Shown here: one piece after another, positions 46 through 29,694 of the stretch
How positions within the stretch are numbered: the first letter of the stretch is position 1
How the letters are laid out: the number at the start of each line of letters is the position of its first letter
Origin: Dysgonamonadaceae bacterium
GTDB lineage: Bacteria; Bacteroidota; Bacteroidia; Bacteroidales; Azobacteroidaceae
Assembly: GCA_031267385.1 (NCBI GenBank)
Contig: JAIRZF010000082.1
Span: 1-35,892 of the forward strand
Direction: 5' to 3'
Length of the DNA: 35,892 nt
Notes under the pieces: generated by a model
Seen by the model: the letters and a program-made list of their open reading frames with translations, nothing else
What the model was told of the DNA's origin: nothing
Database searches by the model: none
Made by a program: the position numbers and the translations under genes

Positions 46-121
46 TACGTTTTACGTTTTACGTTTTACGTTTTACGTTTGGCTTACGCACGCTTACAAC
101 GTAAAACGTATAACGTAAAAC
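46..121. repeat. Heptamer-arm hairpin element, copy 1 (between rny and hisH)
   Basis: The left arm (46-80) is a run of ACGTTTT heptamers. The core (81-97) reads GGCTTACGCACGCTTAC. The right arm (98-121) is the complementary AACGTAA/AACGTAT heptamer series. The arms can pair over about 24 bp with one mismatch, leaving the core as loop. The element starts directly after the rny stop codon (122-124) and ends 5 nt before the hisH start. Copies at 7164-7276 (inverted) and 21556-21628 share the 12-nt core GGCTTACGCACG. Confidence 0.9.
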
Positions 122-3829: not shown

Positions 3830-3855
3830 ACGTCATTATTTTTTATTTTATAGGT

Positions 3856-3917
3856 CGTATGGAACCCGTGCTAATGTCATCGGTATGGATGTTATTTTAT
3901 CATACGGGTTTCATACG
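3856..3917. other. Long stem-loop in the ugd leader / RND gene tail
   Basis: Positions 3856-3870 (CGTATGGAACCCGTG) are almost the reverse complement of 3901-3917 (CATACGGGTTTCATACG), with one mismatch and one bulged base. The loop is about 30 nt. It lies between the stop of the second RND permease and the start of ugd, both on the minus strand. It lacks an adjacent U-tract in the minus direction, so a classical terminator is not well supported. A leader regulatory hairpin or an RNA-processing site are alternatives. Confidence 0.6.
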
Positions 3918-3936
3918 TACATAATTTGTTTTTTAT
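3909..3936 (-). repeat. 28-bp leader repeat, copy A
   Basis: These 28 bp are identical to 20377-20404, the sequence surrounding the start codon of the beta-CASP nuclease gene. On the minus strand the shared part ends in AAATTATGTACGTATGAAA. Here the final ATG opens only a four-codon frame (ATG AAA CCC GTA TGA). It overlaps the stop codon of the RND gene (3935-3933) and one arm of the adjacent stem-loop. Confidence 0.8.
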
Positions 3937-6900
3937 GGAACAAATTTACGAATTTTATGTTCATTTTTTGCTACTCCCATAAATAATGGCAGAAAACAAA
4001 ACGATCCAATCAGGGAAGTCACCATCCCTCCTATTGTTCCGGCAGCCAGAGGGAACCAGAATGCTTCTTTATATTCACCGATCATGAACGGGATAAAACC
4101 CAATATAGTAGACACTACTGTCAAGAAAATAGGGCTGATCTTGGCATTCCAGGCTTTAATATATGCTTTCAAGGGATTAATTTTCCTTTTCCTGAGAATG
4201 TTATTATATTCATTCATCACATAGATATTGACATTGACGGCGATACCACAAAGCAGGACGAATGAGGCAAATCCTCCCTGGTCAAAGTTCAACTTAAACA
4301 GATAAAATGTCAGGAAAATACCGATGAATGCTATGGGAATCACAAAAATAACGGACAATGGTTGTTTCAATGAATTAAATAAGACGCTGCAAGTAAAATA
4401 AATAATCACAAAAATCAACAGTATCAACCAATATTGTTTGGAATTATCTCTTCCCCAGCTCCAACCTCTCGCCTGATCTTCAATGGTATAACCCATCGGC
4501 AATGTAGTCCTAAATTTATCGATACAACGTGTCAGGAATTTCTTCCCCTGTTCATTGGATCCAATGTATTCATATTGTAAGCCTAACAAATATTGCTGGT
4601 CTTTTTTCACAATATCCTGGGGAGCCTGAGATTTCTGAACAGTTGCCAGTTCTTTTAATTTATATTCTTTCTCTTTTCCGATTCGTCCGGGCACATGTTC
4701 AAGACTCCACACATCATATTCTTCCGATTGCCGTGAATTCAGGACAATACGTTCCAGTCCGTATTCTCCCGGGATCTGTCCTGCATTTATTTTTTGTCCG
4801 AACATTGGTTTTAATGAAGCAAATAATTGAATGGGCAGCATATTTTCCTGTGCCAGTCGCTCCGGATCCAAATCAAACATAAACTCCTGGTAATCATCTT
4901 TATACCAACTGTATTCCGAACTAATCAACACTTCTTTTATCCGTCGGTTCTCCAGTAATTCTTCTTTGAATTTTTCGGCTAATTCATACAATTCATCATA
5001 ATTAAATCCCTGTATCACAACATATGACGAACCTGCCATTTCACTGACATTATTATTAAAACCATCGCCAAGTCCATATACTCCCCAACTACCTCCACCC
5101 AATTCAATAGCCTTACTGATCAGCTTGGATTTTAACAAATACGGAAATCCGGTACGTTCACTTTCTTTGGTAAAATCAATGTTGATGCTGGCCCTCCGGG
5201 CGCTCTGTACGCTGGTTTGAAACTGCTTCACCTCGTTGAATTGACTGATATAGACTTCCATCTTCTGTATCAGATTGTTCATCTGCGACACAGTCGATCC
5301 GTTAGGTAATGTTGCTGTGACATAGACAGAGGTTTGTTCCCTGTTCTTAAAATAACTTCCCTGGAACACTTTCTGTACAAACAGCCTCAAAGTTCCTCCC
5401 AGATATTTATCTGTATGGGATTTGATTTTTTCCTTATAAATATTCGATCCCAAGGTTTTATTATAAATCTCGCCCCACTGTGATCCATCGTTCACTTTTT
5501 CGGGCAATAAAAACACAGGCAGACCAAAAACCAGAATAATCAGAATACAAACCGGAACTCTCCAACGCCAGGTAAAACGACAAAAAACAGCGTAAAAACG
5601 ATTGAAATATACATTCATACGTTTCGGTCTTACAACAGGTAAGCAACGTTGAACGGCAAATGGCAGCTTACTCAGCAACCGGTTCCTGATGCGCCTTTTA
5701 TTCTTTGCTTTTTGCCCTTTGCCGATCTTCAGTTTCTCTAATAACGCAGGAACCAAAAATAACGCAACAAACAGTGATACGGAGAGATTTATAATAATAA
5801 CCCAGGCAAAATCCAACAGATTCAACCTGATTTTTTCATCCATAAAGAAAATAATCACCAAAGATGCAATTGTCGTAATCGTTGCCGTGAGAATCGCAAA
5901 ATAGGCATTTTTGTTATTTCTCCGGATAATCTGATCCGACATTACGATTGTATTATCAATGACCAGGGTCAACGAAATAGTGATCCCCGCCAGGGAATAA
6001 AGCTGCATTTCGAGTCCCAGGAAATAATAAAAAATGACTGCAATGGAAATATTGATGAACAGAGAAATCGAAATCAGTAGTAAATACTTCAGATTACGAT
6101 AGATCATCATCACAAACAACAGCAGGATTATCAATGTGAGACTTGTGCGGAAATAAATTTTATCCAGTTCATCTTTAATATATTCTGTTGCATCGTATCC
6201 GAGGTGCATTTCATAGCCTGCAGGAAAAATAAGTTCAATGGCCTCCAGTTCTTTTTTTATCAATTGACTCAATTCCAGCTGATTGGCATTTTCATCCGCT
6301 TTTATCGACATGTAGATGGAATTCAGTCCGTTGATACGATAATAACTCTGGGCGTCTTGTTCCAGATAACCGACAGTCACAACTTTATCCAGAGATATTA
6401 ATTTCCCGTTGACATTCTTGACCTGAATGTTTGCGGGATCAAATCCATGTTTAGTTTCAAGTTCGGGGGCAAGAGCGACCCGTATCCATTGAGTCTCTCC
6501 GTCCGAAGTCTCAATGGAAGCTGTCCCCAAAAATTCCCGGCTAAGATAATTGGTTATAGCGCTTTGAATATTCTGCACATTCAGACCGAGGGTTTCCAAG
6601 ATTTTGTAATCGTATTCAACTTTCCATTCCATCGGCATGGCGCCACTGACGATGATCTGATTAACTCCGGGTATTTGTGCCAGTTTCGGTTTGATATTAC
6701 TTTCCGTAAACTGCTGGATCACAATCGGATTCGCAGGCGCATTAACCGTATAACTCAAAAAGGGACGGTTAGCATCGTTATCCGAACGATTCAGGGAGAT
6801 GACGGGATAACTTGTTCCCTCCGGCAAGAACGGCCAGGTTTGCCGGATAATTGTCGATGCTTCAAAACGTACCGCATCCAGATCTGCATGTTTATCAAAA

Positions 6901-7163: not shown

Positions 7164-7276
7164 GTTTTACGTTTTACGTTATACGTTATACGTTATACGC
7201 TGTACGTTGTACGTTATACGTTGTACGTTCTTGTCGTGCGTAAGCCAAACGTAAAACGTATAACGTATAACGTGTA
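7164..7276. repeat. Heptamer-arm hairpin element, copy 2 (between the outer-membrane factor and the second RND gene)
   Basis: This is the longest copy, in inverted orientation relative to copies 1 and 3. Positions 7164-7229 carry heptamers of the types ACGTTTT, ACGTTAT and ACGTTGT, plus one ACGCTGT. The core (7230-7246) is the reverse complement of GGCTTACGCACGACAAG. The other arm (7247-7276) is a series of AACGTAA/AACGTAT units. The element begins at the base next to the RND start codon and ends about 10 nt before the outer-membrane factor stop codon, so it fills an in-operon gap. Confidence 0.9.
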
Positions 7277-20532: not shown

Positions 20533-21555
20533 TCAATTGAAATAGTTTGAATTTCTCCGGCTCACAATTACGTAAATAATCACCGGAGCGCCCAGAAGCG
20601 GAGTTACGGCGTTCAATGGCAATAGTCCACGATCGAAAGGTAAGATCGTCATCAAATTGCATAACAGAGCCACTGCAGATCCTGTCAGGAGGGTAGCCGG
20701 TAACAAAAAAGTCTGATTTGAAGTGCCGAGAGCCAAACGTGCAACATGAGGAACTGCCAGTCCAATGAAACTGATAGGGCCACAAAATGCGGTAACGATC
20801 GCCGTCAGTAATCCGGTACAAAGAAATATCAGAATACGGGTACGATTGATATTGACTCCTAAGTTGGCTGCATAACGCGCACCCAGGAGAAGGAGGTTCA
20901 AGGGTTTTATGAGAAGAATTGACAAAACAAGTCCCAGGACAACCACAGCGCTAAAAACCGGTAACTGATTCAATGAAACTCCGGAAAAACTGCCCATACC
21001 CCACATCACAAAAGACCGGAGACTTTCGGCTGGAGCAATTGAATTAAGAATTGAAATAGCCGACGATGTCAGATACCCGATCATCATTCCTATTATAAGA
21101 ACGAGAACATTGCTTTTCACCCGGGTCGAGAAGTAAACGATTACGGACAGGATCATCAAAGCGCCTCCAAATGCAGCAATAATAACAGACATGCTGCCTC
21201 CCGGCGCCCACCAGGCATAACCGTCCAGACTGCCGCCAAAATAGAGCATCACCAATGCGACTCCCAAATTAGCGCCGTCGCTGATTCCCAGAATAGACGG
21301 TCCTGCCAACGGATTTTGGAACAAAGTTTGTAACATCAGTCCGCAAACAGCCAAAGCAGCCCCTGCCAACAAAGCTGTTACAGCCTGTGGCAACCGGGAT
21401 TGAAGAATGATGTTCATCCAGGCTGTCCGCTCAATTTCTTTCCCCGACAAAACATCAATAACCTGAGCAATTGGTATATTTACAGAGCCATAGACCAGAT
21501 TTGCGAAGAAAAAAAGAACGATAAGAGCGACAAGAGATATGCAAACTGTTTTCAC
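20533..21555 (-). CDS. FecCD/BtuC-family ABC transporter permease
   Basis: The 340-residue integral membrane protein belongs to the permease family that imports iron-siderophore, haem or cobalamin. It has about ten hydrophobic segments. The conserved LMLQTLFQNPLAGPSILG-type segment lies at about residues 72-90, and GPISFIGLAVPH lies near the C-terminal third. The start codon is GTG at 21555-21553; the hydrophobic N-terminus follows directly and no ATG is close. No ATP-binding or substrate-binding gene is next to it: the downstream neighbour is a nuclease and the upstream one a beta-galactosidase. Repeat copy 3 abuts the start. The cognate partners must be elsewhere, or the gene is an orphan. 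Confidence 0.9.
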   Translation of the reverse strand: MKTVCISLVALIVLFFFANLVYGSVNIPIAQVIDVLSGKEIERTAWMNIILQSRLPQAVTALLAGAALAVCGLMLQTLFQNPLAGPSILGISDGANLGVALVMLYFGGSLDGYAWWAPGGSMSVIIAAFGGALMILSVIVYFSTRVKSNVLVLIIGMMIGYLTSSAISILNSIAPAESLRSFVMWGMGSFSGVSLNQLPVFSAVVVLGLVLSILLIKPLNLLLLGARYAANLGVNINRTRILIFLCTGLLTAIVTAFCGPISFIGLAVPHVARLALGTSNQTFLLPATLLTGSAVALLCNLMTILPFDRGLLPLNAVTPLLGAPVIIYVIVSRRNSNYFN

Positions 21556-21628
21556 TTTTTACGTTTCACTTTTTACGTTTGGCTTACGCACGACAAGAAC
21601 GTATAACGTATAACGTATAACGTAAAAC
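21556..21628. repeat. Heptamer-arm hairpin element, copy 3 (between lacZ-type gene and FecCD gene)
   Basis: The left arm (21556-21580) has TTTTTACGTTT and TTTCACT units. The core (21581-21597) reads GGCTTACGCACGACAAG, the same as copy 2. The right arm (21598-21628) is AACGTAT repeated three times and then AACGTAAAAC. The element fills the gap between the beta-galactosidase stop (21634-21632) and the GTG start at 21555. Its arms pair less perfectly than in copy 1. Confidence 0.9.
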
Positions 21629-21631
21629 ATA

Positions 21632-24600
21632 TTACTTTATTGGTCTAATTAAATACGAATAACTGAATTTATCATCAGTCAGACGGTACTGTGGTAAAGG
21701 GCGCGCACCCCAGCTGTTATCGCCGCCGACTCCCATCTGTTTCCAATCGACATTGATTGCCAAAGTATTACGCTTGTCCACATCAATAGGATGTTGCTGC
21801 TTTTTTGTAAATCCGGGATCCATATCTTCATCAAAATTATAACGGGCATTAAAACAGATCGGGCCATCAATTCCTTCAAAACGGATCCCGGCTTTATCTC
21901 CTGAGAAAGTAACCCAACGGACATCCGTACGGTAACCATTCTCCTGAGGACGGATATAATCGAACTTAAGCTCGTCCGCTTTACAGAAATAGTGTCCTAT
22001 GAACGAAGAACGGGAACGGTCACTGTAATTTTCCCACGGGCCACGACCATAATATTCCACATTTTCGAATGTTTCGGGGATTTCCATTTTCATACCAAAA
22101 CGAGGCAGATCCGGCATTTTCTTTCCTGTAAGATCCATATTTCCGGTCACTTTCACACTTCCGTCATTGTAAATAAAATAACTGATCTGATAGGGAACGT
22201 CCACATATTTCAGGCGATATTGAACCACAATTTCCTGACCTTCGCCGGTTTGATCTTTTATATCAAGATTCAGCAATTCCCTGTCATTACCGGCACTACG
22301 CCACACATTTGATGATTTTTGCATTCCAAAACCAAAATCATTATCCAGGGGAGCTCTCCAGAAATTGGGGACGGGAGCCGCAGTCAGCAATCGTTGGTTG
22401 TCCACGGAATAATTATATAACAATCCATCTTTCAGACTGATCCGGCCTTTTACATCTCCGGAGGAAAAGTTCAGGTCATTTTCTGTTTTGTTGAGTATCA
22501 ATGTTCCCGGTGACATTTTTGATGAAACGAAATAGTTGTCTGAGGGGAACGCAATCTGTTCATTCGCGACTATATGTCCGGTTGGAATGAGATTTTTTCC
22601 TTCTTTTGCGAGAACGGATACTTCAAGGAAATATTCTTCGCCCTCATTGGTTTTTCTTTCAGGCAGTTGCAAAGTTATTTCCTTTTCAGTCATAGGTTTA
22701 CCCGAAATCAAGAATTTCCCTTCAGTCACCAATTCTCCATTTTTGAACAATTCCCATTTATAATCATATTCATTCAGATCGGTAAATAGATTGTAATTGA
22801 TCAATTTAATCTTTCCATTTTCTATATCTACCGGACGAATCCACACCGGTTGATACACTTTTTTAACTTCGTGCATGGCCGGATGGATCGTGCGGTCGGC
22901 ATTAATCAAACCATTGGCACAGAAATTTTCCTGATGCGCCCAACGGTGACCACCCCAGTCTCCACCATAAATCCAATAGTTACGACCGTGTTCATCCGCG
23001 ACTTTTAAGCCCTGATCTACCCAATCCCAAATAAAACCGCCTTGCAACGCCGGATATTTCATGATAGTATCCCAATATTCCTGAAAGTCACCGGTGCTAT
23101 TTCCCATGGAATGAGCATATTCGCACAGAATCAGAGGACGTGTAATGTCTTCTCTTTTAGCATAATGAGCCAACCACACAGCCGGAGTGTACATCGGCGT
23201 AATCATGTCCGTAAAAGAACGCTCTCCCGCACGGTCGCATTGAACAGGACGTTTGGCCTTATCATGTTCTTTTAACCAATCATAAGTAGCTTCATAATTA
23301 GGCCCGAAATCACTTTCATTACCCAGAGACCAGTTGATCACACAAGCATGATTTTTATCGCGTTCAAACATGCGGGCGGTGCGATCCAGATGTTGACCTT
23401 TCCAGTCCGCAATGAATGAAGGGTGACGGGTTCTGTCGAATCCATCCAGATCATGAGCTTCAAGATTAACCTCATCAACTACATATATACCATATTTATC
23501 GCACAACTTATATATTTCCGGATTCTGAGGATAGTGACAGGTACGGATGGCATTAAAATTAAACTGTTTCAACAGCCGGAGGTCTTTTAATTTTGTGATC
23601 TCGTCGACATAATGTCCGTATGATTCGTGGTGCTCATGCATATTCACTCCCCTGATAATGATCGGCATACCATTGATCAGGAATTGTTTATTTTTAATTT
23701 CCATTTTCCGGAAACCGGTTTTACAACCGGCTAACTCGACAAGCCGGCCACCAGGATCTTTCAATTCGACACAAAAAGTATACAGATCCGGATGTTCCGC
23801 ACTCCATTTTTTAGGATTATTCAAAGATTGCCTGAACGATACTTTTTGCATCCCTTTTCCGGAAATACCGCTCACATTCAGAACTTTTGAAATAAGAGTC
23901 CGGTTATTTCCGTCTAACAGAGACAGATTCAAAACGTATTGCCCGGATGTTTGAGAATCAAAATTACGCACAGTCACATCCACATCCAGAATACCATTTT
24001 TATAGGCAGCGTCGAGATCTCCCTGCACAAAAAAATCTTCGATAGAAACTTTAGGGCGTGCTATAAGCATCACATCACGCTCTATACCGGATAAACGCCA
24101 GAAGTCCTGATCTTCAAGGTAAGACGCATCACTCCATTTAAATACCTGCATCGCCAATAGATTTTTCCCTTTTTTGAGGAGAGGAGTAATATTGAACTCA
24201 ACCGGAGTTTTGGCTGCTTTTGAATACCCTACCCTTTGACCGTTGACATACAGGGTTGCCGCTCCTGAAATTGATCCGAAATACAAGATAATTTCTTCTC
24301 CTTCAAACGATTCCGGCGCCTCGAACCACGTGCGGTAAGTCCCGATCGGAAGATCATTATTGTCCTGATAAGGGGGATTTTTCGGAAAAATATACGTAAT
24401 ATTTGTATAAACAGGAATACCAAATCCCTGAGTTTCCCAGCTTCCGGGCACCTGGATTGATTTCCAATAAGAATCATCCAGATTTTCCTTATAAAAATCG
24501 ACGATACGCGTAGCTACATTTTCCGCAAAACTGAATTTCCAGGTCCCATTCAATGATTTAATGTAAGGAGAAGTCATTTTATTGTCTTCGACCAACTGGT

Positions 24601-26821: not shown

Positions 26822-26864
26822 GTTTTAAGTTTTAAGTTATGAGTTTTAAGTTTTAAGTTTTAAG
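26822..26864 (+). repeat. Degenerate heptamer array between thuA-like and oxidoreductase genes
   Basis: Directly after the ThuA stop codon come six heptamers: AGTTTTA, AGTTATG, then AGTTTTA three times and a partial unit. The period (7) and the GTTTTA content match the hairpin-arm heptamers elsewhere in the window, with A in place of C. There is no core and no complementary arm. The array ends 8 nt before the next start codon. Confidence 0.75.

Positions 26865-28257: not shown

Positions 28258-29694
<1,437 letters not shown>

Follow-up and report, generated by a model that had tools for sequence, protein, structure and literature searches.

Palindromic arrays of 7-bp units around a shared core at gene junctions of a Dysgonamonadaceae bacterium and its relatives

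Three gaps between co-directional genes in a 35,892-nt stretch of DNA from a Dysgonamonadaceae bacterium (the window) are filled by short fold-back elements, and they raise the question of what these elements are, how they came to lie there and whether they serve the flanking genes. A sequence-only reading had placed them at 46-121, 7164-7276 and 21556-21628, and all three were present, each with heptamer arms and an exact copy of the core GGCTTACGCACG (Table 1). The co-directional junctions of that reading were upheld, but the gene pairs required correction. The RNase Y gene, whose stop codon (122-124, - strand) flanked element 1, was followed by a gene whose product began MELAIIKYNAGNI, an N-terminus that fits the earlier hisH assignment. 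Element 2 was bordered by the stop side of an OEP/TolC-type gene (7287) and the start of an RND pump permease (7163), and element 3 separated a LacZ-type GH2 beta-galactosidase gene from a FecCD permease gene. The description of the arms was also amended for element 3, in which one arm consisted of ACGTATA units and the 5' arm was a degraded 14-bp TTTCACTTTTTACG repeat. RNA folding on the gene strand gave z values of -5.9, -2.8 and -1.9 for elements 1, 2 and 3, respectively. A fourth array began at the ThuA-family stop codon, ended 13 nt short of the following start codon, and formed no strong hairpin (z 0.3).

Table 1. Coordinates of the elements, their cores and a core-less array in the window.
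Feature	Position	Strand	Description
Element 1	46..121	-	heptamer arm, core, complementary heptamer arm; junction of RNase Y gene and next gene (hisH)
Core of element 1	81..92	+	exact GGCTTACGCACG
Element 2	7164..7276	-	core within asymmetric heptamer arms; fills the OEP to RND permease gap
Core of element 2	7235..7246	-	exact GGCTTACGCACG
Element 3	about 21553..21635	-	junction of LacZ-type GH2 gene (stop side at 21632) with FecCD permease gene
Core of element 3	21581..21592	+	exact GGCTTACGCACG
Fourth array	26822..26859	+	core-less direct GTTTTAA units; ThuA-family to GFO/IDH gap

The assembly was interrupted at element 1, and positions 1-119 of the window repeated, in reverse, the first bases of contig C107. 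Contig C107 carried a further element (L180, 1366-1436) ahead of a hisF-like gene starting MLAKRI. No Rfam match at gathering score fell on the elements of the window; the sole match lay elsewhere and was a 6S-Bacteroidales RNA (RF01693, 18656-18837, - strand, 174.6 bits). An (AC)23 dinucleotide run was located at 29555-29601, close to where a gene ends (3' side).

A single 12-mer in the window could have been a chance match, but chance was ruled out in the source genome (G000, a 3.76-Mb draft in 332 contigs), which contained 48 exact copies of GGCTTACGCACG and no copy of the reversed-pattern control. All 48 cores adjoined heptamer arrays, and the earlier description of the elements as too regular for chance was confirmed. 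The elements are a family of small fold-back DNA repeats, with dozens of copies, in a gut-type bacterium and its relatives. Period 7 was the commonest among tandem arrays in 0.82 Mb of the source genome, with 92 arrays versus at most 31 for any other period. Most units were GTTATAC or GTTTTAC, and GTTWTAA formed a minority. The junction between the left array and the core was mostly constant, usually ACGTTT followed directly by GGCTTACGCACG, and the right linker was variable (ACAA, CCTTC and others). In several elements the right arm was short or absent, and one arm could reach about 15 units. Arm lengths were uncorrelated (rho -0.22), and matched arm lengths, a mark of hairpin selection, were thus absent. 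The unit types nearest the core agreed between the arms in 53 of 55 elements (Fisher p 1e-5).

Composite forms were also observed, in which inverted array-and-core halves bracketed other sequence (L148, 4672-4880; L178, 2537-2716) or array-and-core copies stood in tandem (L151). The loop of the composite element in L148 contained another palindromic repeat at 4727-4850 (CCGTAGGCT..AGCCTACGG, TTAATAAAGTACTGTCCCTGCGGGACAAGTAC), and a similar sequence, TTAATAAAGTGTCG, adjoined an array in genome G041. A 1.4-kb gene between inward-facing cores at L176 was considered as a sign of a larger parent transposon, but its product appeared ATPase-like from sequence and was not evidently a transposase.

The position of the elements relative to genes was counted in the same 0.82 Mb, for which contigs were mostly picked because they held a core, so that density was inflated and position was not; several contigs of the relatives were picked likewise. 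Genes were called with a home-made codon-based scorer with uncertain start codons, and starts were reset to the first ATG after the array before distances were counted. None of 63 elements lay inside coding sequence, though 88% of the sample was coding. Among the 46 elements in co-directional gaps, 33 started within 10 nt of the stop codon, 39 ended within 20 nt of the start codon, and 28 did both. The leftover spacer had a median of 33 nt, versus about 306 nt expected under length-proportional insertion, and where at least 30 nt were left over, 10 of 13 elements still abutted one edge (3.5 expected). What is targeted seems to be the gap as such and not the intergenic base. The preference for stop-to-start gaps, first suggested for the window, was found again genome-wide and in the relatives. 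In convergent gaps, four of five elements lay against the stop codons on both sides, at most about 20 nt away. In divergent gaps the elements mostly sat away from the start codons. The core ran in one direction relative to transcription in 24 cases and in the other in 14.

Three relatives of the same genus were compared, of which G001 and G003 contained the core and G002 did not. The comparison of orthologous gaps, proposed with the first description, yielded both occupied and empty versions, and the units differed between orthologues. No element was found in G002 at any orthologous junction compared; the spacers there were 2-45 nt long, the shortest (2-5 nt) at sites 13, 16 and 36. In G003, a 3-nt gap (TAA-TTT-ATG) was present at site 10 and an 11-nt gap at site 20, and small array-like remnants were seen at sites 28 and 35. 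Sites 9 and 19 were common to G000 and G003, and sites 20, 27, 28, 40 and 49 and window element 2 to G000 and G001. The gap of element 2 held a diverged orthologue in G001 and no array in G002. When sites were sampled irrespective of cores in the relatives, an array hairpin was present in G001 at three of six, a small sample. Period-7 arrays also prevailed in G002, with 12 versus at most one for any other period.

In a survey of 295 genomes of the order for TTGGCTTACGCAYG, only single matches, all of the CATG form, occurred outside G000. A scan of genome contigs with the 14-mer GGCTTACGCACGAC gave mostly chance matches, and only L105, from Dysgonamonadaceae bacterium Rs511_bin31, was a true element, the same as that in G001 at L240. 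Copies of the core or arrays were not found in the viral contigs, plasmids and phages searched. A core-bearing contig of G041 (C363) had AAGATTT arms; it may be foreign to that bin, because the other four contigs sampled from G041 had no arrays. In G001, the core was also located inside apparent intrinsic terminator hairpins, at about 6241-6252 of L236 and about 261-272 of L238 (- strand). These terminator-like structures read GAAGGGCTT...AAGCCCTTC, with Ts coming next on the opposite strand, and stood after two similar gene ends.

At the shared sites, the core was reversed between orthologues at sites 20, 27, 28 and 40 and kept its direction at sites 9, 19 and 49 and at window element 2, and thus flipped in about half. 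Because the core occurs in both directions to transcription and is flipped between orthologues, an RNA reading of the loop in one set direction is unlikely. At site 35, the loop was replaced by a different sequence in G001. At site 28, one arm in G000 retained the GTTCTAA units of G001, while the core and the other arm belonged to the type found throughout G000; half of the palindrome looks as though it had been overwritten. At site 25, the gap in G003 was occupied by a hairpin from a different array family (GGGAGTTAWA units, z -11.6). Besides the AAGATTT arms in C363, the core was accompanied by GAGTTAA and AATTGAA arms in G001, and arrays of AATTGAY, TTAGTGG, AATTAAC and similar units also occupied stop-to-start gaps in G002 and G003. 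Across the relatives, location varies less than sequence. Since the gap-filling AATTGAY, TTAGTGG and GGAGTTAWA arrays of the relatives lack ACGT, a protein reading ACGT at 7-bp spacing, one of the roles first offered, is unlikely as a general explanation. Unit number varied between copies both genome-wide and in the relatives, as the window had indicated, and the arrays were not fixed but varied in length, with the hairpin usually retained at shared sites; neither outcome named beforehand as refuting was seen.

A second dispersed leader family was observed in the window at 3830-3932 (- strand), with the arrangement TATGAAACSMGYATG...GGGTTCCATACGACC...AATGACGTATG and an inverted repeat ending just before a start codon. 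Its motif GTTCCATAYGAYC occurred 14 times in 400 kb of G002, six times in 822 kb of G000, twice in G001 and once in G003, and was found neither in the other genomes of the family nor in an 807-kb control. Every copy had an ATG 11-27 nt downstream. One copy of this leader family (L274, 180-268) was located directly upstream of a Y1 transposase ORF of G000.

RNA folding confirmed the predicted hairpin genome-wide and in the relatives. The elements of G000 folded better than shuffles, with a median z of -4.3 and 68% below -2 (47 elements), whereas nested-pair depth was a poor discriminator (44 versus 27 in ordinary junctions). Orthologues with different units mostly kept long stems (z -6.3, -6.0 and -5.2 at sites 27, 28 and 19, respectively). 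An intercistronic RNA-hairpin role is plausible: a stem in the polycistronic mRNA would set the relative expression of the two genes, with its structure constrained and its sequence free. Such a stem might shield the upstream 3' end, hinder decay or translational readthrough, or guide RNase cleavage. Folding above shuffles, the survival of stems through unit changes, flips and even the exchange for a different array family at site 25, and the preference for tight co-directional junctions are all consistent with selection for such hairpins. However, some elements lacked the right arm or were core-less direct arrays and formed no hairpin, the orthologue of element 2 in G001 had a weak stem (z -1.4), elements were found in convergent and divergent gaps too, and the G002 junctions work with 2-45 nt spacers and no array. 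Moreover, although kept stems and matched arms fit hairpin selection, foldback repair or arm-to-arm conversion could fit equally, and selected hairpins are a rather unlikely, if sizeable, alternative as the reason for the family. The narrower proposal that ribosomes take the A-rich 3' arm ahead of the start codon as their entry signal drew on the 39 of 46 elements that end within 20 nt of a start and on a 3' arm that was A-rich in whichever orientation. The elements are not simply translation leaders, because some of them occupy stop-to-stop gaps or lie within divergent ones, and the relatives begin the same genes after spacers of 2-5 nt with no element. The leader role first suggested from the window was therefore not supported as a general one, and it is the least probable account of the elements.

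The elements are explained, with somewhat better than even confidence, as lineage-specific interspersed palindromic array repeats that have gene junctions as their niche, above all the tight stop-to-start gaps of operons, and that are maintained by slippage and recombination. In each element an array of 7-bp units runs into a core loop (GGCTTACGCACG with its variable linker), beyond which an inverted array usually follows. The arrays would expand by 7-nt slippage. Recombination or template switching between loci would copy the core and homogenise the units, as is suggested by the units common to every array of a genome; arm-to-arm exchange would flip the loop, foldback repair would keep the arms complementary, and recombination between arrays would also overwrite half-elements. 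The resulting hairpin in the intercistronic mRNA would be tolerated and may affect mRNA processing, which is only a candidate reason for the existence of the element. Slippage of a plain microsatellite in place, at AT-rich junction spacers, would account for the dominance of period 7 in G000 and G002 and for the remnants at sites 28 and 35 in G003, and core-less arrays may fit it. For core-bearing elements it is contradicted, as one 12-nt core at 48 loci with inverted matching arms cannot arise independently, and slippage alone is very unlikely for the family. A non-autonomous transposable element of the MITE or REPIN type, with a transposase in trans and a preference for gene junctions, would agree with the high copy number, the clean short gaps in the relatives, the mostly constant array-core junction and the inverted pairs that bound other sequence in L148 and L178. 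Such a mobile miniature element had been suggested at the outset, and the many copies and the empty 2-5 nt gaps in the relatives spoke for it, but no transposase or target duplication came with them. Matches to Y1 transposases, the family searched, were few (two each in G000 and G003, none in G001 and G002), and no core or array was near any of them. The ends of the elements were not fixed but varied with unit number, and no duplication was visible against the empty sites, which were themselves 2-11 nt long and diverged. Mobility of this kind is improbable, and slippage with recombination was favoured because there was no Y1 association, no copy on the mobile carriers searched and no visible target duplication. 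The copying mechanism within this preferred reading is deduced from sequence, and the searches for Y1 found no enzyme for it. Two observations count against it: the length-independent targeting of edges exceeds what a merely tolerated niche predicts, and the long stems kept with changed units could equally mean hairpin selection. It is also conceivable, though very unlikely, that an active process in this lineage lays heptad-periodic palindromic arrays specifically at coding boundaries, for example RNA-templated or primed at stop/start junctions, with the unit chosen per species and the position kept. If this were true, operon junctions would be written and rewritten independently of sequence.

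The elements were compared with known systems. A CRISPR array was ruled out, as the units were contiguous without spacers, and no intrinsic terminator (a G+C-rich stem followed by a T run) was found around elements 2 and 3. BOX elements of Streptococcus pneumoniae are similarly modular intergenic repeats with a variable number of internal modules, and their sequence and module sizes are not known to be related to those of the elements. Among published repeats, the nearest counterpart is the set of TAACTGA heptamers that occurs in Beggiatoaceae, Cyanobacteria and some Bacteroidetes. It has many intergenic copies, the majority within several nucleotides upstream of a start codon, with no functional class of genes; it consists of a single unit without a shared core, and in the best-studied genome its arrays are direct, with 2-6 copies each and one inverted pair (MacGregor 2015, PMC4679880). 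Both are 7-nt tandem units just upstream of starts. However, the present elements have GTTWTAC/GTTWTAA units, inverted arms and a shared core, abut both ends of the gap, and differ in unit sequence between close relatives. REP, BIME and REPIN sequences are GTAG- and CGTC-tagged palindromes (PMC3733652, PMC3116915), and they share with the elements an intergenic location, many copies and mRNA hairpins. In contrast to them, the arms of the elements are tandem 7-mers of variable number that end in heptamer units with no GTAG or CGTC foot apparent by inspection, and no RAYT was flanked by elements. BrickBuilt of Porphyromonas gingivalis, a minisatellite MITE with 23-nt units and a leader and tail with inverted ends, lies 49-591 nt from genes (PMC4596501). 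It resembles the elements in its Bacteroidales host, intergenic location, tandem units and inverted ends, whereas the elements lie 0-20 nt from genes and both of their arms are built of 7-nt units. The descriptions of TAACTGA repeats, REP/REPIN and BrickBuilt do not include an invertible core that is shared between copies, flanked by inverted arms of 7-mers and placed at the boundaries of coding sequence, and a text search of the literature for the element sequences gave no relevant paper.

Records of heptamer arrays in cyanobacteria, sulfur bacteria and Bacteroidetes go back years but have come with no mechanism. The single genus compared here offers occupied and empty junctions, loop flips, single-arm swaps and the replacement of a whole array by another family. 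Position can thereby be separated from sequence, and whether hairpins at junctions are parasites, tolerated filler or regulators of operon expression becomes testable.
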